This document shows, piece after piece, positions 14,124 through 21,492 of a DNA stretch of 56,657 nucleotides. The DNA lies in the IMG/VR virus record IMGVR_UViG_3300047323_000160, positions 1 through 56,657 of that record, one strand, 5' to 3'. Below the pieces are notes generated by a model that saw nothing but the letters and a program-made list of their open reading frames with translations, was not told the DNA's origin and searched no databases. A program made the position numbers and the translations under genes. Each line of letters starts with the position of its first letter. The first letter of the stretch is position 1. Source of the DNA: a virus.

Positions 14124-15305
14124 TTAGTTGCCGAACAGGCGCTGGGCATACTGATCGCAGACCTCTCGGTCGGTCGGCGACAGTCGGTTCGCGAAGGCGA
14201 GAGCGAGACCCTCGCGCCAGTTGCCGCCGGTCACGACCCCGAACAGCGCGGCGTTGATCAGTTCGCGCGGTGAGACCGTGTTGCTGATCTGACCGCCGGC
14301 GAAGGCGGTGCGGATCTTCTGCGCGTAGTCGACGATCTGGTTCGCTTCCTGCATGCGGATGCCGGACTTGCCGGCGACGACCGCGGCTTCGATCTTCGCG
14401 TCCATGTAGCCGACCTGCTTCGTGACGGCGAAGCGCGAGTAGTTCGCAGCGTTCTGGATCTGCGTGCCCTGGTAGAGGCCCGTCTCGTCGCCGCCGCCGT
14501 TGGTGTTACCGGTCGCGACGAAGCGGAAGTTCGGATGCGGCTCGATCACGCGCCACTCGGGCGGCGCATCCTTGATGATCAGCGGCTTGCCTTCCATGAC
14601 CGGCTGGTAGGCGGCGAGCACGCTCGGCATGCCGAAATCGTATTCGTCGGCGCAGTAGACCCAGCCGCGCTTCATGGCGAGGGCGAGAGGGCCAGGGTTG
14701 AACCGCGTGACGGCGTGGACGTGCTCCTTGCCGTCGGCCCCGATCGTGATCTCCGAAACGACGATGTATTGGCCCAGGATGTGCGCTTCTTCAGTGTTGA
14801 CCGTGTGCTGCACGCGCTGGAAGGGGCGACAGGTGCGGGCGCAAACCTGCTCCCACTGCGTCGTCTTGCCAGTGCCATGAAAGCCCCAGAACAGCGCCGG
14901 CTTGTTGAGCTCGAGCGCCATCAACGCGATCTTGGTCAGATCGACGTTGAAGATGTATTCGGGATCGACCTTGGGGATCCAGGCGAGATCGTCGGCGGAG
15001 AACTCGGCCCGATCATAGACGCGGGCGTCCATGACCTTGCCCTGCTTGTTGGTGACGGTCGCGGCGGGGAAGCCGAACAGATCGGTGAGCGGCTGGCGGG
15101 CGCCGGCGTTGGCCTTCTCGGCTTCTTTCTCCGCGCGCTTCTTGCGGACCGCGTCCTTGGCGGCTTCGGAGAGAAGCGGGGCTGTGGGGAAGCGGCGCTG
15201 ATACTCCTCGACGCTGACGGTCGGGTGGAACTTTTCCAGGTGATACTTGATCGAATGGACCAGTGCGCCGTCCAATTCGCACTTGATCTTGCCTTTGTCG
15301 CTCAT
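14124..15305 (-). CDS. CobS-like MoxR-type AAA+ ATPase
   Basis: The 393-residue product has Walker A GFHGTGKTT (141-149), Walker B WVYCADEYDF (about 218) and sensor-1-type VATGNTN (about 264). The N-terminal CELDGALVHSIKYHLEKFHP is the CobS/MucR-like module. CobS partners CobT in cobaltochelatase, but no CobN or cobalamin genes are seen. In phages, CobS/CobT-like pairs may act as a generic AAA+/VWA remodelling machine. The partner is the CobT-like gene upstream. Two dyad operators, 22 bp apart, lie in its leader. Confidence 0.8.
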   Translation of the reverse strand: MSDKGKIKCELDGALVHSIKYHLEKFHPTVSVEEYQRRFPTAPLLSEAAKDAVRKKRAEKEAEKANAGARQPLTDLFGFPAATVTNKQGKVMDARVYDRAEFSADDLAWIPKVDPEYIFNVDLTKIALMALELNKPALFWGFHGTGKTTQWEQVCARTCRPFQRVQHTVNTEEAHILGQYIVVSEITIGADGKEHVHAVTRFNPGPLALAMKRGWVYCADEYDFGMPSVLAAYQPVMEGKPLIIKDAPPEWRVIEPHPNFRFVATGNTNGGGDETGLYQGTQIQNAANYSRFAVTKQVGYMDAKIEAAVVAGKSGIRMQEANQIVDYAQKIRTAFAGGQISNTVSPRELINAALFGVVTGGNWREGLALAFANRLSPTDREVCDQYAQRLFGN

Positions 15306-15347
15306 TGTGACCCCGTGTGCTGTGCTGCTGTTGTGTCTTGTATGTAA

Positions 15348-15359
15348 GTCATTGCTGAC
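15348..15359. promoter_or_regulatory. Dyad operator GTCAT-TG-CTGAC
   Basis: One mismatch to the consensus. It is the gene-proximal site of a pair in the CobS-like leader. Centres of the two sites are 22 bp (two helical turns) apart, which suggests cooperative binding on one face. Confidence 0.55.
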
Positions 15360-15369
15360 TGGAAAGCAA

Positions 15370-15381
15370 GTCAGAACTGAC
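15370..15381. promoter_or_regulatory. Dyad operator GTCAG-AA-CTGAC (exact)
   Basis: Upstream member of the tandem pair in the CobS-like leader, flanked by AAGTCAG...CTGACTTA, symmetrical out to 7 bp on each side. Confidence 0.6.
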
Positions 15382-15416
15382 TTATGGAGGTAGGGACGTT
15401 TAAGGCGCGGCCGGCC

Positions 15417-15638
15417 TCAGTTGAACTCCCCATAGAGGTCGCCCCACATGAACTGTGGGACCCGTGGCTGTGGATCGGGCTCGGCATAGGCGCAATCTGC
15501 GCAGGTCCAAGCTCGCTTGTCGCCGATAAAGGCGTCGTCGCATTTATGGCAGCGGGAGACATAGCCGCCTGGTGCCCAGCCGTGACGTTGCGGCCGCTCG
15601 TCGTGCTTCCAGTCCAGAGGAAATGCTGGTCGGGTCAT
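15417..15638 (-). CDS. Small zinc-ribbon protein, 73 aa
   Basis: Two CxxC pairs (CHKC and CADC) separated by 13 residues form a classic zinc ribbon. It lies between the CobT- and CobS-like genes, with its ATG overlapping the CobT-like stop (ATGA). It may be an adaptor for that pair, inferred from position alone. Confidence 0.6.
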   Translation of the reverse strand: MTRPAFPLDWKHDERPQRHGWAPGGYVSRCHKCDDAFIGDKRAWTCADCAYAEPDPQPRVPQFMWGDLYGEFN

Positions 15639-18283
15639 TGCTGGAGAATCCCTTTCAGTTCCTTCATGACCTGCTTGGGCAGCTCGGCGAGATCCTTCAG
15701 GACGACGGCCTTCGGATAGAAGGTGCGAACCGAGTCATCCATGATGCCGACGCCGATCGTCTCGATCCGCTTCTTCTCGCATTCCTCGACCGCGCGATGC
15801 AGGTCGGAGTAGATCTCCTCGGGGAAGCGCGACATGCCCGCGGGGTGTCCGTCGGACAGCACGATCAGCACCTTGCGCGGCTCGGTGCGCAGCGCCAGGC
15901 GGTTGCCGGCGAAGCGAACGGCCTCGCCGTCGGTGTTGCCGCTCATGGGACAGGTGTAGGGCGCGATCGCGAAACGACGCTTCACCTCGGGCGTCAGGCG
16001 CTCGTTCACGTCCTTGTAGATCGGATGGTAGAGCGCGCCCATGCGCGAGAAGTGGCGACCGATGCGCTCCTCTTCGGCCTCTTGCTGCTCCTGCCAATCC
16101 TTCACGCCCCGCGGCTGCATCGTGGTGAAGCCGATGACCTCGTGCTTGATGTTGACCCGCTGCAAGGTCGAGGAGAGGGCGTAGCCTGCGCTCATCGCCA
16201 TCTTGATCTTCTCGCCGCTCATCGAGCCGGAATTGTCGATCAGGAGCGTGACGGCCGTCTCCGGCGACTTGTGCTCCTGGAGGCGGCGGAACACGCGATC
16301 ATCGCCAGTGCGCAGGCGATGCAGCGAACCGGAGTGCATGCGACCCGAACGATAGCCGGGCACCTTGAGCACTTGGCTGCGCGCGGCCATCATGCGCTCG
16401 ATGTCCTTTTGCATCGGCGCGACCATGTGAGCGGTGCGCTCGTCGAGCTCCGTGACCATGCCGTTGAGGGTGGTCTTGCGGGTGCCCCAGCGGCCGTTCT
16501 TGTTGTCGTAAACCTCCATCTCGGGATCGCCCGCGGGCACCGGGAACTTCTCGCACACGTCCCATTCGGTCGTGTAGACGCGGTAGTCCAAGCCCTTGAT
16601 GCTGCGCGTCGCCTCGTTGGTGATGATGAAGGCGATACCCTTCGCCATGTCGTCACCGAGGTTTTCGATCTCGACACCCTGGAACGGACTGCTCTCGGGC
16701 GCCTGCTCGAGGTCGTTGCGGCTGGTCTCAGTCTCGTCCTCTGCGTCGGCCTTCTTGCCGGTGGAGCGGAACTCACCGTCGTCCTGGTCACCCTCGTCGT
16801 CGCCCTTGGAGCCTACTTCGCCGTCAGCTTCTGACGGATCGCCTTCTTCGTCATCTCCGTCATCGTCCCCAGCTCCACTGCTGTCATCGGCATTCTCGGC
16901 ATTCTGATCATCAGACCTGTCCGAATCCGAAGCATCATCCGCATCTTCTTCGTCACCTGCGCCGCCGCCTTTGCCATCGGCTTCTTTGTCGGTCTCGCCA
17001 TCCTGATCGCCGGAGCCGCCTTCGGCTTCCATCTTGTCGTCGCCGGCAGCATCATCGTCATCAGCCTCGTCGCCTTCATCCGTATCGTCATCCTTGGAGC
17101 CAGACGACCCGCCAGCCTGATCGCCGCTGTCGCCATCCTTCGCTCCATCATCTTCCTCGTCGCCGGCGTCTTTTCCGCCCGCGTCATCACCCTCGGCCAG
17201 ATCGTCCTCGTCTTGATCGGCGTCAGATCCGCCAGCGCCTTCTTCGTCGTCCTCGGCGTCGCTCTCCTCGTCGCCGTCAGTTTTCCCTTCACCCTCGGAC
17301 CCTTCTTCGGCTTCCGCGCCTTCTTCGCCATCTGCTTCACCCTCTCCGGTGTCACCTTCGCCGTCGTCGCTGTCCTGGTCAGCCGGCTGCTGCTCGTCCG
17401 ACTGTTCGCCGTCCGCGCCCTTGTCGTCCTGGTCCTCGGGCTTGTCCTGGTTGTTGCCTTCGCCGTTCGGATCGTCCGACTTCTCGCTGTCGGACGGCTT
17501 GTCGGACTTCTGCTCCTGCTGATCCTTCATCTCCTCATTGATGGCGTCGGCCATGCTCTGCTGCGGCAGCGCGGGCGGAGGAGGGGGCTCGGGGTGCATG
17601 TAGTCGAACAGGATCTCGGCGATCTCCAGGGTCTCCCAGGAGTTCCGCGTTTTGCCGATGCGCGCCTTGACGCTATCCGGAACCAGCTTCGTGAACGCCA
17701 CGACCAGCGGATCCTTGTCGTAACCGTTGTCAGTGAGGAAATCGCGGAACTTGGTTTGGCCGGCCCAGGCGCGAACCAGCGGCACGAAGATGCAGCCGAA
17801 GCGGTCCTGCGGCGTCTTGGCCCTGTCGATCGCGGGCTTGGAGATCTTCTCGATGAAAATGTCGTGGAGCTTGTCGACGTTGTAGGCGGAGCCGCGGAAG
17901 CGCTCGGACATCTTGCGCTCGACATACGGATCTTCGACGACGTTGTGAACCTGGCTCATGAAGGCGCCGGCTTGCTTCGGCGTCATCTTGGCGTTCGCGG
18001 GGCGCTTGCCGGCGGCGCCGCGCTTCTCACTCTCGGCAACGGCCTTCCAGTCGGTGTCGAAGACGTGACCGAGCTCGTGGTCGATGAAGCCTTGGATCGC
18101 GTCGACCAGGCGCTCGTCGGCATCGTCGGGCAGGTGCGGGATGTTCACCCGCACCGGCCGCAACGTCACCTTATCAGTTGCAACAAAGGCCTGAGCCCCG
18201 ACTTGCGTCACGGTGATCCCGCGAGCGATGATCATCGGGATCAGCTTCTTAACGACCTCGCGGAGCTGCTGGACTTTGTTCAT
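15635..18283 (-). CDS. CobT-like protein: HExxH, acidic linker and VWA domain
   Basis: The 882-residue product has an N-terminal helical domain with HELGH at 69-73, a zinc-metallopeptidase-type HExxH. Residues ~248-514 are a very long Asp/Glu/Gly/Ser low-complexity linker. A C-terminal von Willebrand A domain carries the MIDAS motif DNSGSMSG (about 679-686), the TDGEA loop and LSDGHPAG. CobT and other VWA partners of MoxR ATPases share this layout. It is encoded upstream of the CobS-like ATPase. A cobalamin role is unlikely since no other cobaltochelatase gene is present. A protein-remodelling or proteolytic role is inferred. Confidence 0.8.
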   Translation of the reverse strand: MNKVQQLREVVKKLIPMIIARGITVTQVGAQAFVATDKVTLRPVRVNIPHLPDDADERLVDAIQGFIDHELGHVFDTDWKAVAESEKRGAAGKRPANAKMTPKQAGAFMSQVHNVVEDPYVERKMSERFRGSAYNVDKLHDIFIEKISKPAIDRAKTPQDRFGCIFVPLVRAWAGQTKFRDFLTDNGYDKDPLVVAFTKLVPDSVKARIGKTRNSWETLEIAEILFDYMHPEPPPPPALPQQSMADAINEEMKDQQEQKSDKPSDSEKSDDPNGEGNNQDKPEDQDDKGADGEQSDEQQPADQDSDDGEGDTGEGEADGEEGAEAEEGSEGEGKTDGDEESDAEDDEEGAGGSDADQDEDDLAEGDDAGGKDAGDEEDDGAKDGDSGDQAGGSSGSKDDDTDEGDEADDDDAAGDDKMEAEGGSGDQDGETDKEADGKGGGAGDEEDADDASDSDRSDDQNAENADDSSGAGDDDGDDEEGDPSEADGEVGSKGDDEGDQDDGEFRSTGKKADAEDETETSRNDLEQAPESSPFQGVEIENLGDDMAKGIAFIITNEATRSIKGLDYRVYTTEWDVCEKFPVPAGDPEMEVYDNKNGRWGTRKTTLNGMVTELDERTAHMVAPMQKDIERMMAARSQVLKVPGYRSGRMHSGSLHRLRTGDDRVFRRLQEHKSPETAVTLLIDNSGSMSGEKIKMAMSAGYALSSTLQRVNIKHEVIGFTTMQPRGVKDWQEQQEAEEERIGRHFSRMGALYHPIYKDVNERLTPEVKRRFAIAPYTCPMSGNTDGEAVRFAGNRLALRTEPRKVLIVLSDGHPAGMSRFPEEIYSDLHRAVEECEKKRIETIGVGIMDDSVRTFYPKAVVLKDLAELPKQVMKELKGILQQ

Positions 18284-18303
18284 CTGTGCTCTGTGCCCTG
18301 TAA

Positions 18304-18315
18304 GTCAGAATTGAC
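18304..18315. promoter_or_regulatory. Dyad operator GTCAG-AA-TTGAC
   Basis: One mismatch. It lies 20 bp before the CobT-like ATG and downstream of a CTGTAG box. The block TAGTCT-GATTT-ACAGTCA is shared with the 8.0-kb leader. Confidence 0.55.
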
Positions 18316-18327
18316 TGTAAATCGAGA

Positions 18328-18351
18328 CTACAGCGTCAAATTCTGGGTTAC
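18328..18351 (-). promoter_or_regulatory. Candidate promoter, GTAACC-N12-CTGTAG
   Basis: Weaker member of the CAATCC-N12-CTATAG group, overlapping the 3' end of the 75-aa gene and driving the CobT-like gene. Confidence 0.25.
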
Positions 18352-18555
18352 TACTGGAACAAGTCTGGAAAGATCAGCCGCGGCGAGCATCGAGGTGCCC
18401 CAGGGTGGAATGGTGATGTGGATCGCTCCAAGCTCGGGATGGTCACCGGAAAACACGGTGCAGGCTTTGCCTTCGTGGGTCGTCTTGTTTTGCAGCTCCT
18501 CGGCGAGCTCGTAGGCGCGTTCAATGGTAACTTCGGTGATGCGATTGGAGGCCAT
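18328..18555 (-). CDS. Small hypothetical protein, 75 aa
   Basis: No family is recognised. An N-terminal amphipathic helix (TIERAYELAEELQNKT) is followed by strands (ACTVFSG, GAIHITIPPWG). The gene has its own dyad operator in the leader (18592-18603). Its 3' end overlaps the candidate CobT promoter. Confidence 0.5.
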   Translation of the reverse strand: MASNRITEVTIERAYELAEELQNKTTHEGKACTVFSGDHPELGAIHITIPPWGTSMLAAADLSRLVPVVTQNLTL

Positions 18556-18682: not shown

Positions 18683-19117
18683 TTATTCTTTGAACGCCGC
18701 CCGGAGCTTCGTCTCGACGTCGCGAGACAAAGAGGGGTCCGAGTTCTTCGACACGCCGCGAATGAACTCGATGATTTCCTTCTCGTTTTTGGTCAACGGA
18801 GTGCCGAAGATCTGAGCGATCGCCTCCGCGGCTTCCGGCCACTGCTCATTGAGCGCCAGGCGGAAGAGGAAGCCGGCGTCGACGTTCAGCGCCTTGGCGA
18901 GCGCCGGCACCTTGTCCAGAGGCACCTTCATCGTGCCCTTGGACATCATGTTGATCGGATTCGGCTTCTCGTAGCCGACGGCTTCCGCAATGTCGCGCTG
19001 GGTCTTGCCCATCGACTTCGCAATGTCGAGCTGGGCCGCAATAAACTCGTGGATCTTTATTCCCGAAGAACTCTTAGGGGTCTTGGACAATTTCGCGCCC
19101 TCCATAGTCGACAACAT
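18683..19117 (-). CDS. XRE-family helix-turn-helix repressor
   Basis: The 144-residue product has an N-terminal HTH (KTQRDIAEAVGYEKPNPINMMSKG, about 43-66) with helix 2/3 spacing like the Cro/CI group. A C-terminal helical part (residues ~85-144) probably dimerises; no LexA-type autoprotease domain is present. ATG 19117 is chosen because GAGGAGAAG lies 5 nt upstream. It is divergent from the RHH-repC plasmid module, and a dyad operator lies in the shared gap. It is the natural candidate for the immunity repressor binding the 21 dyads, but this is inference. Confidence 0.7.
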   Translation of the reverse strand: MLSTMEGAKLSKTPKSSSGIKIHEFIAAQLDIAKSMGKTQRDIAEAVGYEKPNPINMMSKGTMKVPLDKVPALAKALNVDAGFLFRLALNEQWPEAAEAIAQIFGTPLTKNEKEIIEFIRGVSKNSDPSLSRDVETKLRAAFKE

Positions 19118-19270
19118 AAATCTTCTCCTCAATGGCGGTTGCCTGCGCCCCGCAATTTTTCGCTCTCGTTATTGGCGCCCGGCATTTGCATTCCCGCAAA
19201 CGTCTAAGCGACAATGAGCGTATAGCAGCTTGATCGCGGCTCTTAGTGCGGGATGTGCAACTCCCATTCA

Positions 19271-19545: not shown

Positions 19546-19573
19546 CAATCCTCGTAACGTAACGAGAGGATTG
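19546..19573. promoter_or_regulatory. Inverted repeat at the RHH start (probable autoregulatory operator)
   Basis: CAATCCTC and GAGGATTG are perfect 8-bp arms around 12 bp, and the right arm contains the ribosome binding site of the RHH gene. As a DNA operator it suits a dimeric RHH protein; as RNA it would hide the binding site. Confidence 0.5.
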
Positions 19574-19575
19574 CC

Positions 19576-19800
19576 ATGGCGGACTTTGGTGGACCCAACC
19601 GTGTGAGGAAGCTGCGCGAGCGGCGCGCGGCCGAGGGCTACGTCGAGACCAACATCTCGATTCCAAAGGAAATCCGCGAGGTCATCGACAGTAGAGTTGC
19701 GTCTGGAGCGTATCAATCGCGGCGGTGGGCAATCATCGACGCTCTACAGAAGGTATTTCTGCAACAAGATCAGCAATCTACGCAAGCAAAAGGCCCCTGA
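19576..19800 (+). CDS. Ribbon-helix-helix DNA-binding protein, 74 aa
   Basis: The core VETNISIPKEIREVIDSRVASGAYQSRRWAIID is arranged as strand-helix-helix (about 21-55), typical of Arc/MetJ/CopG or ParD antitoxin-type proteins. It is one of only two confident plus-strand genes and directly precedes repC. A CopG-like control of repC transcription is the simplest reading. An antitoxin role is less likely, as no toxin gene is visible. An inverted repeat overlapping its own ribosome binding site suggests autoregulation. Its last codons overlap the ctRNA terminator. Confidence 0.65.
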   Translation: MADFGGPNRVRKLRERRAAEGYVETNISIPKEIREVIDSRVASGAYQSRRWAIIDALQKVFLQQDQQSTQAKGP

Positions 19801-19822
19801 AGCTGGACACTTCAGAGGCCTT
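19783..19822 (-). terminator. Intrinsic terminator of the ctRNA
   Basis: On the minus strand AAGGCCTCTGAAG pairs with CTTCAGGGGCCTT over 13 bp around TGTCCAG, then TTTTGCTT. It overlaps the 3' end of the RHH gene on the other strand. Confidence 0.75.
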
Positions 19823-19865
19823 GGTAGCATAAGCCCCAGTTGGCACAGGGCAAAGCAACAGCACG
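19783..19865 (-). ncRNA. Countertranscribed RNA (ctRNA) controlling repC
   Basis: An antisense RNA of about 80 nt is predicted on the strand opposite the repC leader. It has a near-perfect sigma-70 promoter at 19871-19899. Its 3' end is a strong intrinsic terminator, a 13-bp stem (one GU pair) with a 7-nt loop followed by TTTTGCTT (19783-19822). In repABC plasmids, a small antisense RNA between repB and repC sets copy number and incompatibility by favouring premature termination of repC mRNA. Position, orientation and structure all fit that here. Exact ends are inferred. Confidence 0.7.
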
Positions 19866-19882
19866 CTCCCCTTATGCCAACT
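19827..19882 (+). promoter_or_regulatory. repC leader with mutually exclusive hairpins (attenuator)
   Basis: In the plus-strand leader, GCATAAG (19827-19833) can pair with CTTATGC (19871-19877), while AGTTGGCA (19838-19845) can pair with TGCCAACT (19875-19882). The two stems share 19875-19877, so they compete. The ctRNA covers most of this segment, so its binding could switch the fold. This is the known logic of repC control in repABC plasmids. Confidence 0.55.
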
Positions 19883-19899
19883 GTTTGATTCGGTGTCAA
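19871..19899 (-). promoter_or_regulatory. ctRNA promoter TTGACA-N17-CATAAG
   Basis: On the minus strand a consensus -35 TTGACA (19899-19894) is spaced exactly 17 bp from CATAAG (19876-19871). It is the only clear housekeeping-type promoter in the window, in keeping with constitutive ctRNA synthesis. Confidence 0.7.
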
Positions 19900-19951
19900 G
19901 AACACCCCGATTCGGGTGACCGCTCCCGCTTGCCCAAATTTGGGGAAAGCC

Positions 19952-21106
19952 ATGCGAACGTCATCATCAGGATGGCGACGGACGACCGTCGCTGCCCTGG
20001 AGACGGCCAGGAACACCGTCGAGCCGGATCGGGCCGTCAGCCGGCGGGAACTGAACACGGCAGCCCGCAACGCCATGAAGGGGCTGCGGCTGCGCGGCAA
20101 CCTGCGGCTGATCCTCGGTGAGCTGGTGGGCGTCTACGGCGAGGTCATGGTCAAAGACAAGATCCTGATCTACCCCTCGAACGAATACCTCGAGCGGCGC
20201 ACGGGGCTGCCCGAGCGGACGATCCGCTATGGGATCCGCCGTCTGGTGGATCTGTGCCTGGTCGGGGTCAAGGACTCAGCCAACGGCAAGCGCTTCGGCA
20301 TTCGCAACAAAGCCGGCGACCTGGTCGACGCCTACGGCTTCGATCTGACACCGCTCTACAACCGGCGCGCGGAGTTTGTGGAGCTAATCGCCGAACAGGA
20401 TGCGGAGATTGAGCGCCGGGAGCGCATGTTCGACGAGATCACCATCTGCCGGCGGGCCGCGCAGGAGATCCTGTCCGAAATGGGTATGCAAAGTTCGGAC
20501 ACCTTCGAGGAGCTCGCCGGCCGCACGCCGCGGCGCTCTAGGACGATCGCGGCGGAGGCCGTGGAGCCGGTGCTGGTCGAGTGGCGCGCTCTGCGCACCC
20601 AGCTCGAGGAGAAGTTCTATATGGCCGCCTCTGGCGGCAAGAACGGCCGTCTCATTGAATCAAAACCCACCCATTCAATAAAGGAAACCTTGGAACAAGA
20701 GGCTCCGCGAGGAGCTGAGCCGGTGGAAGAACCTTCTCCGCCAACCGGCCCCGTCACCGCGGCGCTGGTGATCGAAGCATGTCCTTCTCTTTTGGAATAC
20801 GTGGAGCAACCTAAGAGCGAGGTCGATCTGGTCGCAGCCGGGCGATTCCTGCGCTCTACGCTGGGCGCCCATGCGACCGTTTGGAGCGAAGCGGTTGAGA
20901 CGCTCGGGCCGGTGTCGGCCGCTGCTGCGGTCTGCCTGGTGCTCCAGCTTTACGAAGAGGATGCCGCGCGCGGCCAGGGCCAGCGGATTCGAAACCCCGG
21001 CGGCTATCTGCGCGCCGTGGTGCGAATGATCAGGGATGGGCGCATGAACCTGCGCGCCGAGCTCCTGGCTATGATCCGGCGAAGAACCAGTCCGCCGCCA
21101 TCCTGA
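19952..21106 (+). CDS. repC: RepC plasmid replication initiator
   Basis: The 384-residue product matches RepC of alphaproteobacterial repABC plasmids. The N-terminal winged-helix DNA-binding part has the hallmarks IYPSNEYLERRTGLPERTIR, then VKDSANGKRFGIRN and YGFDLTPLYNR. The C-terminal part has TAALVIEACPSLLEY and NPGGYLRAVVRM. RepC binds an origin inside its own gene. ATG 19952 is preferred over GTG 19916 because GGGGAAA lies 3 nt upstream. RepA and RepB are absent; an RHH gene takes their place. This strongly implies episomal replication of the phage genome as a plasmid. Confidence 0.9.
   Translation: MRTSSSGWRRTTVAALETARNTVEPDRAVSRRELNTAARNAMKGLRLRGNLRLILGELVGVYGEVMVKDKILIYPSNEYLERRTGLPERTIRYGIRRLVDLCLVGVKDSANGKRFGIRNKAGDLVDAYGFDLTPLYNRRAEFVELIAEQDAEIERRERMFDEITICRRAAQEILSEMGMQSSDTFEELAGRTPRRSRTIAAEAVEPVLVEWRALRTQLEEKFYMAASGGKNGRLIESKPTHSIKETLEQEAPRGAEPVEEPSPPTGPVTAALVIEACPSLLEYVEQPKSEVDLVAAGRFLRSTLGAHATVWSEAVETLGPVSAAAAVCLVLQLYEEDAARGQGQRIRNPGGYLRAVVRMIRDGRMNLRAELLAMIRRRTSPPPS
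20640..20700. other. AT-rich segment in repC, candidate oriV
   Basis: Within GC-rich repC there is an AT-rich patch with an inverted repeat ATTGAAT (20654-20660)/ATTCAAT (20673-20679). It encodes the linker between the two RepC parts. In repABC plasmids oriV lies in the mid-repC AT-rich region, so this is the likely origin. Confidence 0.45.
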
Positions 21107-21415: not shown

Positions 21416-21492
21416 TGGTTGCGGGAGCGGGATTTGAACCCGCGACCTCCTGGTTATGAGCCAGGCGCGCTACCGGACTGCGCTATCCCGCG
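21416..21492 (-). tRNA. tRNA-Met(CAU), initiator-like
   Basis: A full cloverleaf with encoded CCA. The acceptor stem is CGCGGGA/TCCCGCA, so the first pair is a C1-A72 mismatch, the hallmark of bacterial initiator tRNA that allows formylation. The D-loop AGTCCGGTA is also initiator-like. The anticodon stem is CCTGG/CCAGG, with G30-C40 and G31-C39 but U29-A41, so only two of the three initiator G-C pairs are present. The D-stem has C11-G24, the elongator type. It is therefore a hybrid; the identity is methionine or initiator. An Ile (k2C) tRNA is unlikely given C1-A72. Confidence 0.85.

Follow-up and report, generated by a model that had tools for sequence, protein, structure and literature searches.

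A RepC replicon with an upstream ribbon-helix-helix gene in a viral contig that very likely represents half of an alphaproteobacterial phage-plasmid

Phage-plasmids carrying RepC were published in 2015, 2017 and 2025 (PMC4447125, PMC5537653, PMC12509600), the latest examples being B1VFA and V1VFA-S, described with parA, parB and repC (PMC12509600). The plasmid pLM21S1 was not inducible with mitomycin C (PMC4447125), and hence the full cycle from lysogeny to lysis lacks demonstration even in the best-studied plasmid relative. In the repABC plasmid p42d, RepC alone is enough for replication and oriV lies inside repC, where a silent mutation of the A+T-rich stretch at 658-822 abolished replication (PMC3155836). 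The repC-family replicons, such as pRmeGR4a and repC2 of pSmeLPU88b, have a counter-transcribed RNA (ctRNA), and rhizobial repC modules are described as always accompanying repABC (PMC10194956).

The stretch of DNA analyzed here, hereafter the window, is the entire record IMGVR_UViG_3300047323_000160, a linear, unclosed metagenomic virus contig of 56,657 bases, which comes without circular reads. The 15-25 kb part matched no phage record by Megablast, and the comparison was therefore made at the protein level. The gene order of the window matches approximately 10-51 kb of the 115-kb phage RHEph10; as gauged from such sequence comparison, the window is about half of a genome of approximately 115-120 kb. 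Matches to PHROG and Pfam families of replication and tail genes bear out the initial annotation, which had placed RepC amid phage genes. These comprise PolIII-alpha, UvsX/RecA, an exonuclease, SSB, primase, DnaB, PhoH, CobS/CobT and tail protein J, with ligase, primase and DnaB on one side of repC and PolIII-alpha on the other. Tail genes are present, and no capsid or terminase gene is found among the annotated genes of this 56.7-kb fragment.

A conserved flank on the minus strand (14124..18555), recognized through Pfam and PHROG matches and synteny, is composed of a 75-aa gene, a CobT-like gene and a CobS-like gene. The CobT-like VWA protein (15635-18283) has a very long acidic low-complexity middle, adjoins the CobS-like AAA protein and is conserved family-wide. 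The HTH_3 regulator (18683..19132, minus strand; PF01381 and PHROG transcription-regulator matches) is a candidate lysogeny repressor. Its gene is divergent from RHH-repC and is kept in the syntenic RepC loci with sequence extending that far. Directly downstream of repC lies a tRNA-Met gene (21416..21492, minus strand), with tRNAs at the matching place in loci L002, L003 and L008; L008 has two of them.

The repC gene (19952..21106, plus strand) encodes a replication initiator of 384 aa. Within the open reading frame 19916-21106 on the plus strand, the likeliest start is the ATG at 19952, which has a GGGGAAA Shine-Dalgarno sequence immediately 5' and is where the alignments of the relatives begin. 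The initial annotation recognized RepC by four signature peptides and proposed a profile search of the product. All four peptides are present in the translation, and the profiles match above their curated cut-offs (RP-C PF03428, E 4.7e-39; RP-C_C PF11800, E 1.1e-17; NCBIfam NF040974 RepABC_RepC, 199 bits for a cut-off of 150). The protein also matches PHROG 22671, 'replication protein' (E 8e-48), and a search of solved structures returned no sequence relative. RepC is 75% identical to proteins of uncultivated contigs, 57% to that of a Methylocystis metagenome-assembled genome (MAG), 45% to those of Microvirga plasmids and 36-38% to the RepCs of Rhizobium/Sinorhizobium phage-plasmids (RHEph10, pLM21S1, B1VFA). 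The higher identity to Microvirga plasmids than to RHEph10 (38%) raised the idea that the window RepC had been swapped in from such plasmids, which was dropped because identity is higher to phage RepCs (75% and 57%) and the primase tree has the same closest relatives. An A+T-rich patch within the gene (20601..20780) is a candidate oriV by its local A+T peak and by analogy with p42d; a peak approximately 660-780 nt into repC recurs in most relatives and in the repC of Microvirga pR24_2.

Upstream of repC lies a ribbon-helix-helix (RHH) gene (19576..19800, plus strand; 74 aa), assigned through its family profile and homologues, whose product is a likely autorepressor of the operon. The family profile matches NikR/ParD structures (E 0.0018), the homologues in pLM21S1 and pRlX6 carry an RHH annotation, and a homologue is located upstream of repC in 42 loci. 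Three RepC phage loci (L034, L037 and L057) have no detectable RHH gene upstream. The imperfect palindrome CTCGTAAC-GTAACGAG (19551..19566) is a candidate RHH operator. Similar palindromes, judged by comparison rather than by a statistical test, occur at the same site 5' of RHH in L003, L032, L010, L063 and L052, while other relatives differ. The initial annotation took the RHH gene for a phage replacement of RepA/RepB. We abandoned this idea once RHH was seen upstream of repC in ordinary plasmids, namely Microvirga pMVF16-1, Methylobacterium pMRAD01 and pNMS14P1, M. nodulans pMNOD01, Bosea pANAM02, R. leguminosarum pRlX2 and, in G225, a contig of 210 kb that has RepB and no phage genes nearby. 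In pNMS14P1 and pMRAD01 (L177, L178) the order is RHH-repC-repA-repB, with a sigma-70-family gene in front.

The gap between RHH and repC retains, as predicted from its sequence, the promoter and the covarying terminator of a repABC ctRNA, in an arrangement that matches those described for repABC and repC replicons (PMC3155836, PMC10194956). The repB-repC gap of Microvirga has the same layout. A putative sigma-70 promoter for the ctRNA, TTGACA-17-CATAAG, lies on the minus strand (19871..19899). This pattern, which was defined after the sequences were inspected, occurs in antisense orientation in 31 of 32 distinct loci and in sense orientation in none, a large margin over shuffled sequences (mean 0.21, maximum 3). 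The predicted ctRNA would be approximately 78 nt long (19786..19864, minus strand), its 5' end being set by the promoter and its 3' part by a terminator hairpin followed by T residues (19790-19822, minus strand). Both fold and covariation point to this hairpin: in an alignment that includes one Microvirga plasmid row, covariation is 0.588 compared to 0.317 +/- 0.021 upon shuffling, far above slid controls, and 93.3% of cells are paired. A further hairpin over the repC Shine-Dalgarno (19925..19955, plus strand; inverted repeat I18) is a candidate S-element, with a weak fold z of only -1.2. An Rfam search of the gap matched no ctRNA family, and a sub-threshold guanidine-II match (E 0.64) was taken as chance; a generic promoter and terminator scan did not pick up the antisense elements. 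Like repABC plasmids, the window has a predicted antisense RNA gene immediately 5' of repC, and like repC-family replicons it has a repC with its own predicted antisense RNA outside a repA/repB operon. Overall, the window repC is probably a real plasmid replicon under copy-number control. Since the antisense-RNA layout of the phage-plasmids is like that of host repABC plasmids, incompatibility between phage and megaplasmid becomes a testable barrier to lysogeny.

A primase-based search returned 80 viral and 10 genome loci. RepC is found in approximately 40 of these, and RHH lies directly upstream in nearly all those with a contig extending there. Synteny with the window is seen in two Rhizobium phages, RHEph10 and B1VFA, as well as in six circular plasmids from sequenced isolates (Methylobacterium pAMS5a, a Shinella plasmid, an M. 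oryzae plasmid, pRlX6, pLM21S1 and Pararhizobium p5), all six of which have RepC in the same neighbourhood. The window shows the gene order of the RHEph10/pLM21S1 type, that is ligase...RepC-RHH / HTH-small-CobT-CobS-PolIII, and its PolIII-alpha is 58-62% identical to those of the six plasmids and of Rhizobium phages (RHEph10, B1VFA, X66 and others). In the circular plasmid pRlX6 of R. beringeri (L012), each of the genes for RepC, CobT, CobS and primase is broken into two frames, through either decay or sequencing errors. RepC phage-plasmids range past Rhizobium into Methylobacterium, Shinella, Pararhizobium, Faunimonas, Phyllobacterium, Ancylobacter and a Methylocystis MAG.

The synteny with six circular plasmids and two isolated phages, none of the eight with a tyrosine integrase, supports the earlier proposal of a phage-plasmid. 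Very likely, the window covers roughly one half of the genome of an alphaproteobacterial phage-plasmid of the kind of RHEph10 and pLM21S1, whose lysogeny as a circular plasmid would depend on RepC, on control by RHH and ctRNA, and on a distant ParA.

The slot between ligase and HTH/CobT has other occupants elsewhere: RPA (L058, L059), Rep3 (L111, Paracoccus), RepA_C with a recombinase (L112, Roseospira) and an integrase (L085, L115, L075). Phages with RPA or Rep3 fall within the RepC phages in the primase tree, with modest support. One slot in one chassis, filled by RepC, RPA, Rep3, RepA_C or an integrase, offers a natural experiment on plasmid versus integrated lysogeny. Relatives of the same chassis with an integrase in the slot are what would speak for a prophage that integrates in the chromosome and carries RepC as a passenger or remnant. 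We consider this extremely improbable: no tyrosine integrase (PF00589) is found in the window or, by whole-record search, in the eight complete RepC relatives; in isolates, the RepC relatives are either closed circular plasmids or contigs of their own, 109-118 kb long; and repC is intact, with the layout of its control RNA conserved. It is likewise unlikely, if less so, that RepC chiefly initiates the lytic replication of phage DNA, plasmid maintenance being secondary or absent. RepC does lie between phage replication genes, and no other phage initiator was recognized in the window; however, RHH-repC opposes the lytic genes and faces the HTH regulator, the layout of a copy-number antisense RNA is kept, and relatives occur as circular plasmids with ParA.

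Neither ParA nor RepB is found in the 56.7-kb window. Because the record is an unclosed half-genome fragment, this provides no evidence that partition genes were lost. In RHEph10, ParA is located near 103 kb, outside the stretch that matches the window. Among the RepC relatives, each of the 23 complete or nearly complete records that were checked has one small ParA. In the eight complete ones it is 213-226 aa long and overlaps a downstream gene of 84-142 aa by few bases, and the pair sits tens of kb from repC. The other fifteen are contigs of 105-121 kb with exactly one small ParA match each; some of these matches are under the Pfam cut-off, in frames of similar length. The integrase-bearing L085, a contig of 106 kb with the tyrosine integrase in the slot, has no ParA match. 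No RepB over cut-off is detected in the eight complete relatives by whole-record search, with the repABC plasmid of a Microvirga as the positive control for both RepB and ParA. The initial annotation had described the replicon as lacking RepA/RepB and suggested looking for these genes or an integrase in the rest of the genome. The statement holds for RepB in the complete relatives, but a small unrelated ParA is present in the relatives throughout.

RHH proteins can serve as centromere-binding proteins in small ParA systems. Given this and the lack of ParA in the half-genome window, partition might be truly absent from the phage, with RHH as a centromere-binding protein that works alongside a ParA of the host. 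This is very unlikely, as the relatives encode ParA elsewhere (23 out of 23) with an overlapping small partner gene in all eight examined, and RHH-repC occurs also in plasmids with their own RepA/RepB.

In the RepC tree, RHH-linked RepCs fall on one side and most RepB-linked RepCs on the other (100/100). The phage label requires seven changes along this tree, at least five of which are forced by well-supported branches. It follows that RepC has passed between phages and plasmids several times, in agreement with a general finding on phages and plasmids (PMC10879196). The window falls in a phage-only group with L003, the Methylocystis MAG contig L108, L032 and L033. Since the primase tree too places L003 and L108 nearest, the window shows no sign of a recent RepC swap. 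Microvirga terrae pR24_2 (L014, 2608-6149) has a repA-repB-repC operon with a RepC from the RHH-linked branch, which suggests that the initiator of a repABC operon was swapped.

During lysogeny, the genome of the phage-plasmid would persist as a low-copy circular plasmid, replicating from an oriV in repC and limited by its initiator, RepC. The RHH protein may repress the RHH-repC promoter through the palindrome. A short antisense RNA from the RHH-repC gap, like its counterparts in repABC and repC-family plasmids, would lower the expression of repC by pairing with the leader. For segregation, the phage-plasmid would rely on the small ParA with its partner, both of which the half outside the window would encode, and the HTH gene that faces the operon may encode the lysogeny repressor. 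Beyond this, we are inclined to think, with some reservation, that RHH-[antisense RNA]-repC is a self-contained cassette unlike repABC, traded between phage-plasmids and large Rhizobiales plasmids. In phages it would stand alone in the initiator/integrase slot with a far small ParA, and RHH would act as a CopG-like brake in place of the autorepression by RepA/RepB. Our literature search, outside which most subscription papers fell, found no description of phages with the RHH-ctRNA-repC unit as such, of its sharing between phages and plasmids, of a repC-family replicon that is used alone, its small ParA lying far away, or of an initiator/integrase swap at one slot.

When compared to SSU5 and AB-type phage-plasmids (PMC12977533), the window has related PolIII-alpha and primase and a similar genome size, whereas these phage-plasmids have different maintenance genes in the related region and their PolIII-alpha is approximately 35-43% identical to that of the window. 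With the repABC plasmid p42d (PMC3155836) the window shares RepC, the antisense RNA layout and the A+T-rich patch in repC, but instead of a repA-repB-repC operon it has RHH upstream of repC and no RepA/RepB, and its RepC groups in the tree with the RHH-linked ones, away from most of those that are linked to RepB. The phage-plasmids differ from repC-family replicons in having no RepB over cut-off and a small ParA instead. The Rhizobiaceae elements RHEph10, pLM21S1 and B1VFA have in common with the window the RHH-repC unit, the tail genes and both sides of repC, with HTH, CobT, CobS, sigma and PolIII-alpha on one and ligase, primase, DnaB and PhoH on the other. Their PolIII-alpha is approximately 58-61% identical to that of the window. 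They are complete and their RepCs are the 36-38% identical ones, while the window is incomplete and its nearest RepCs are elsewhere. RepC phage-plasmids are a known kind, of which the window is a new example with some undescribed detail.
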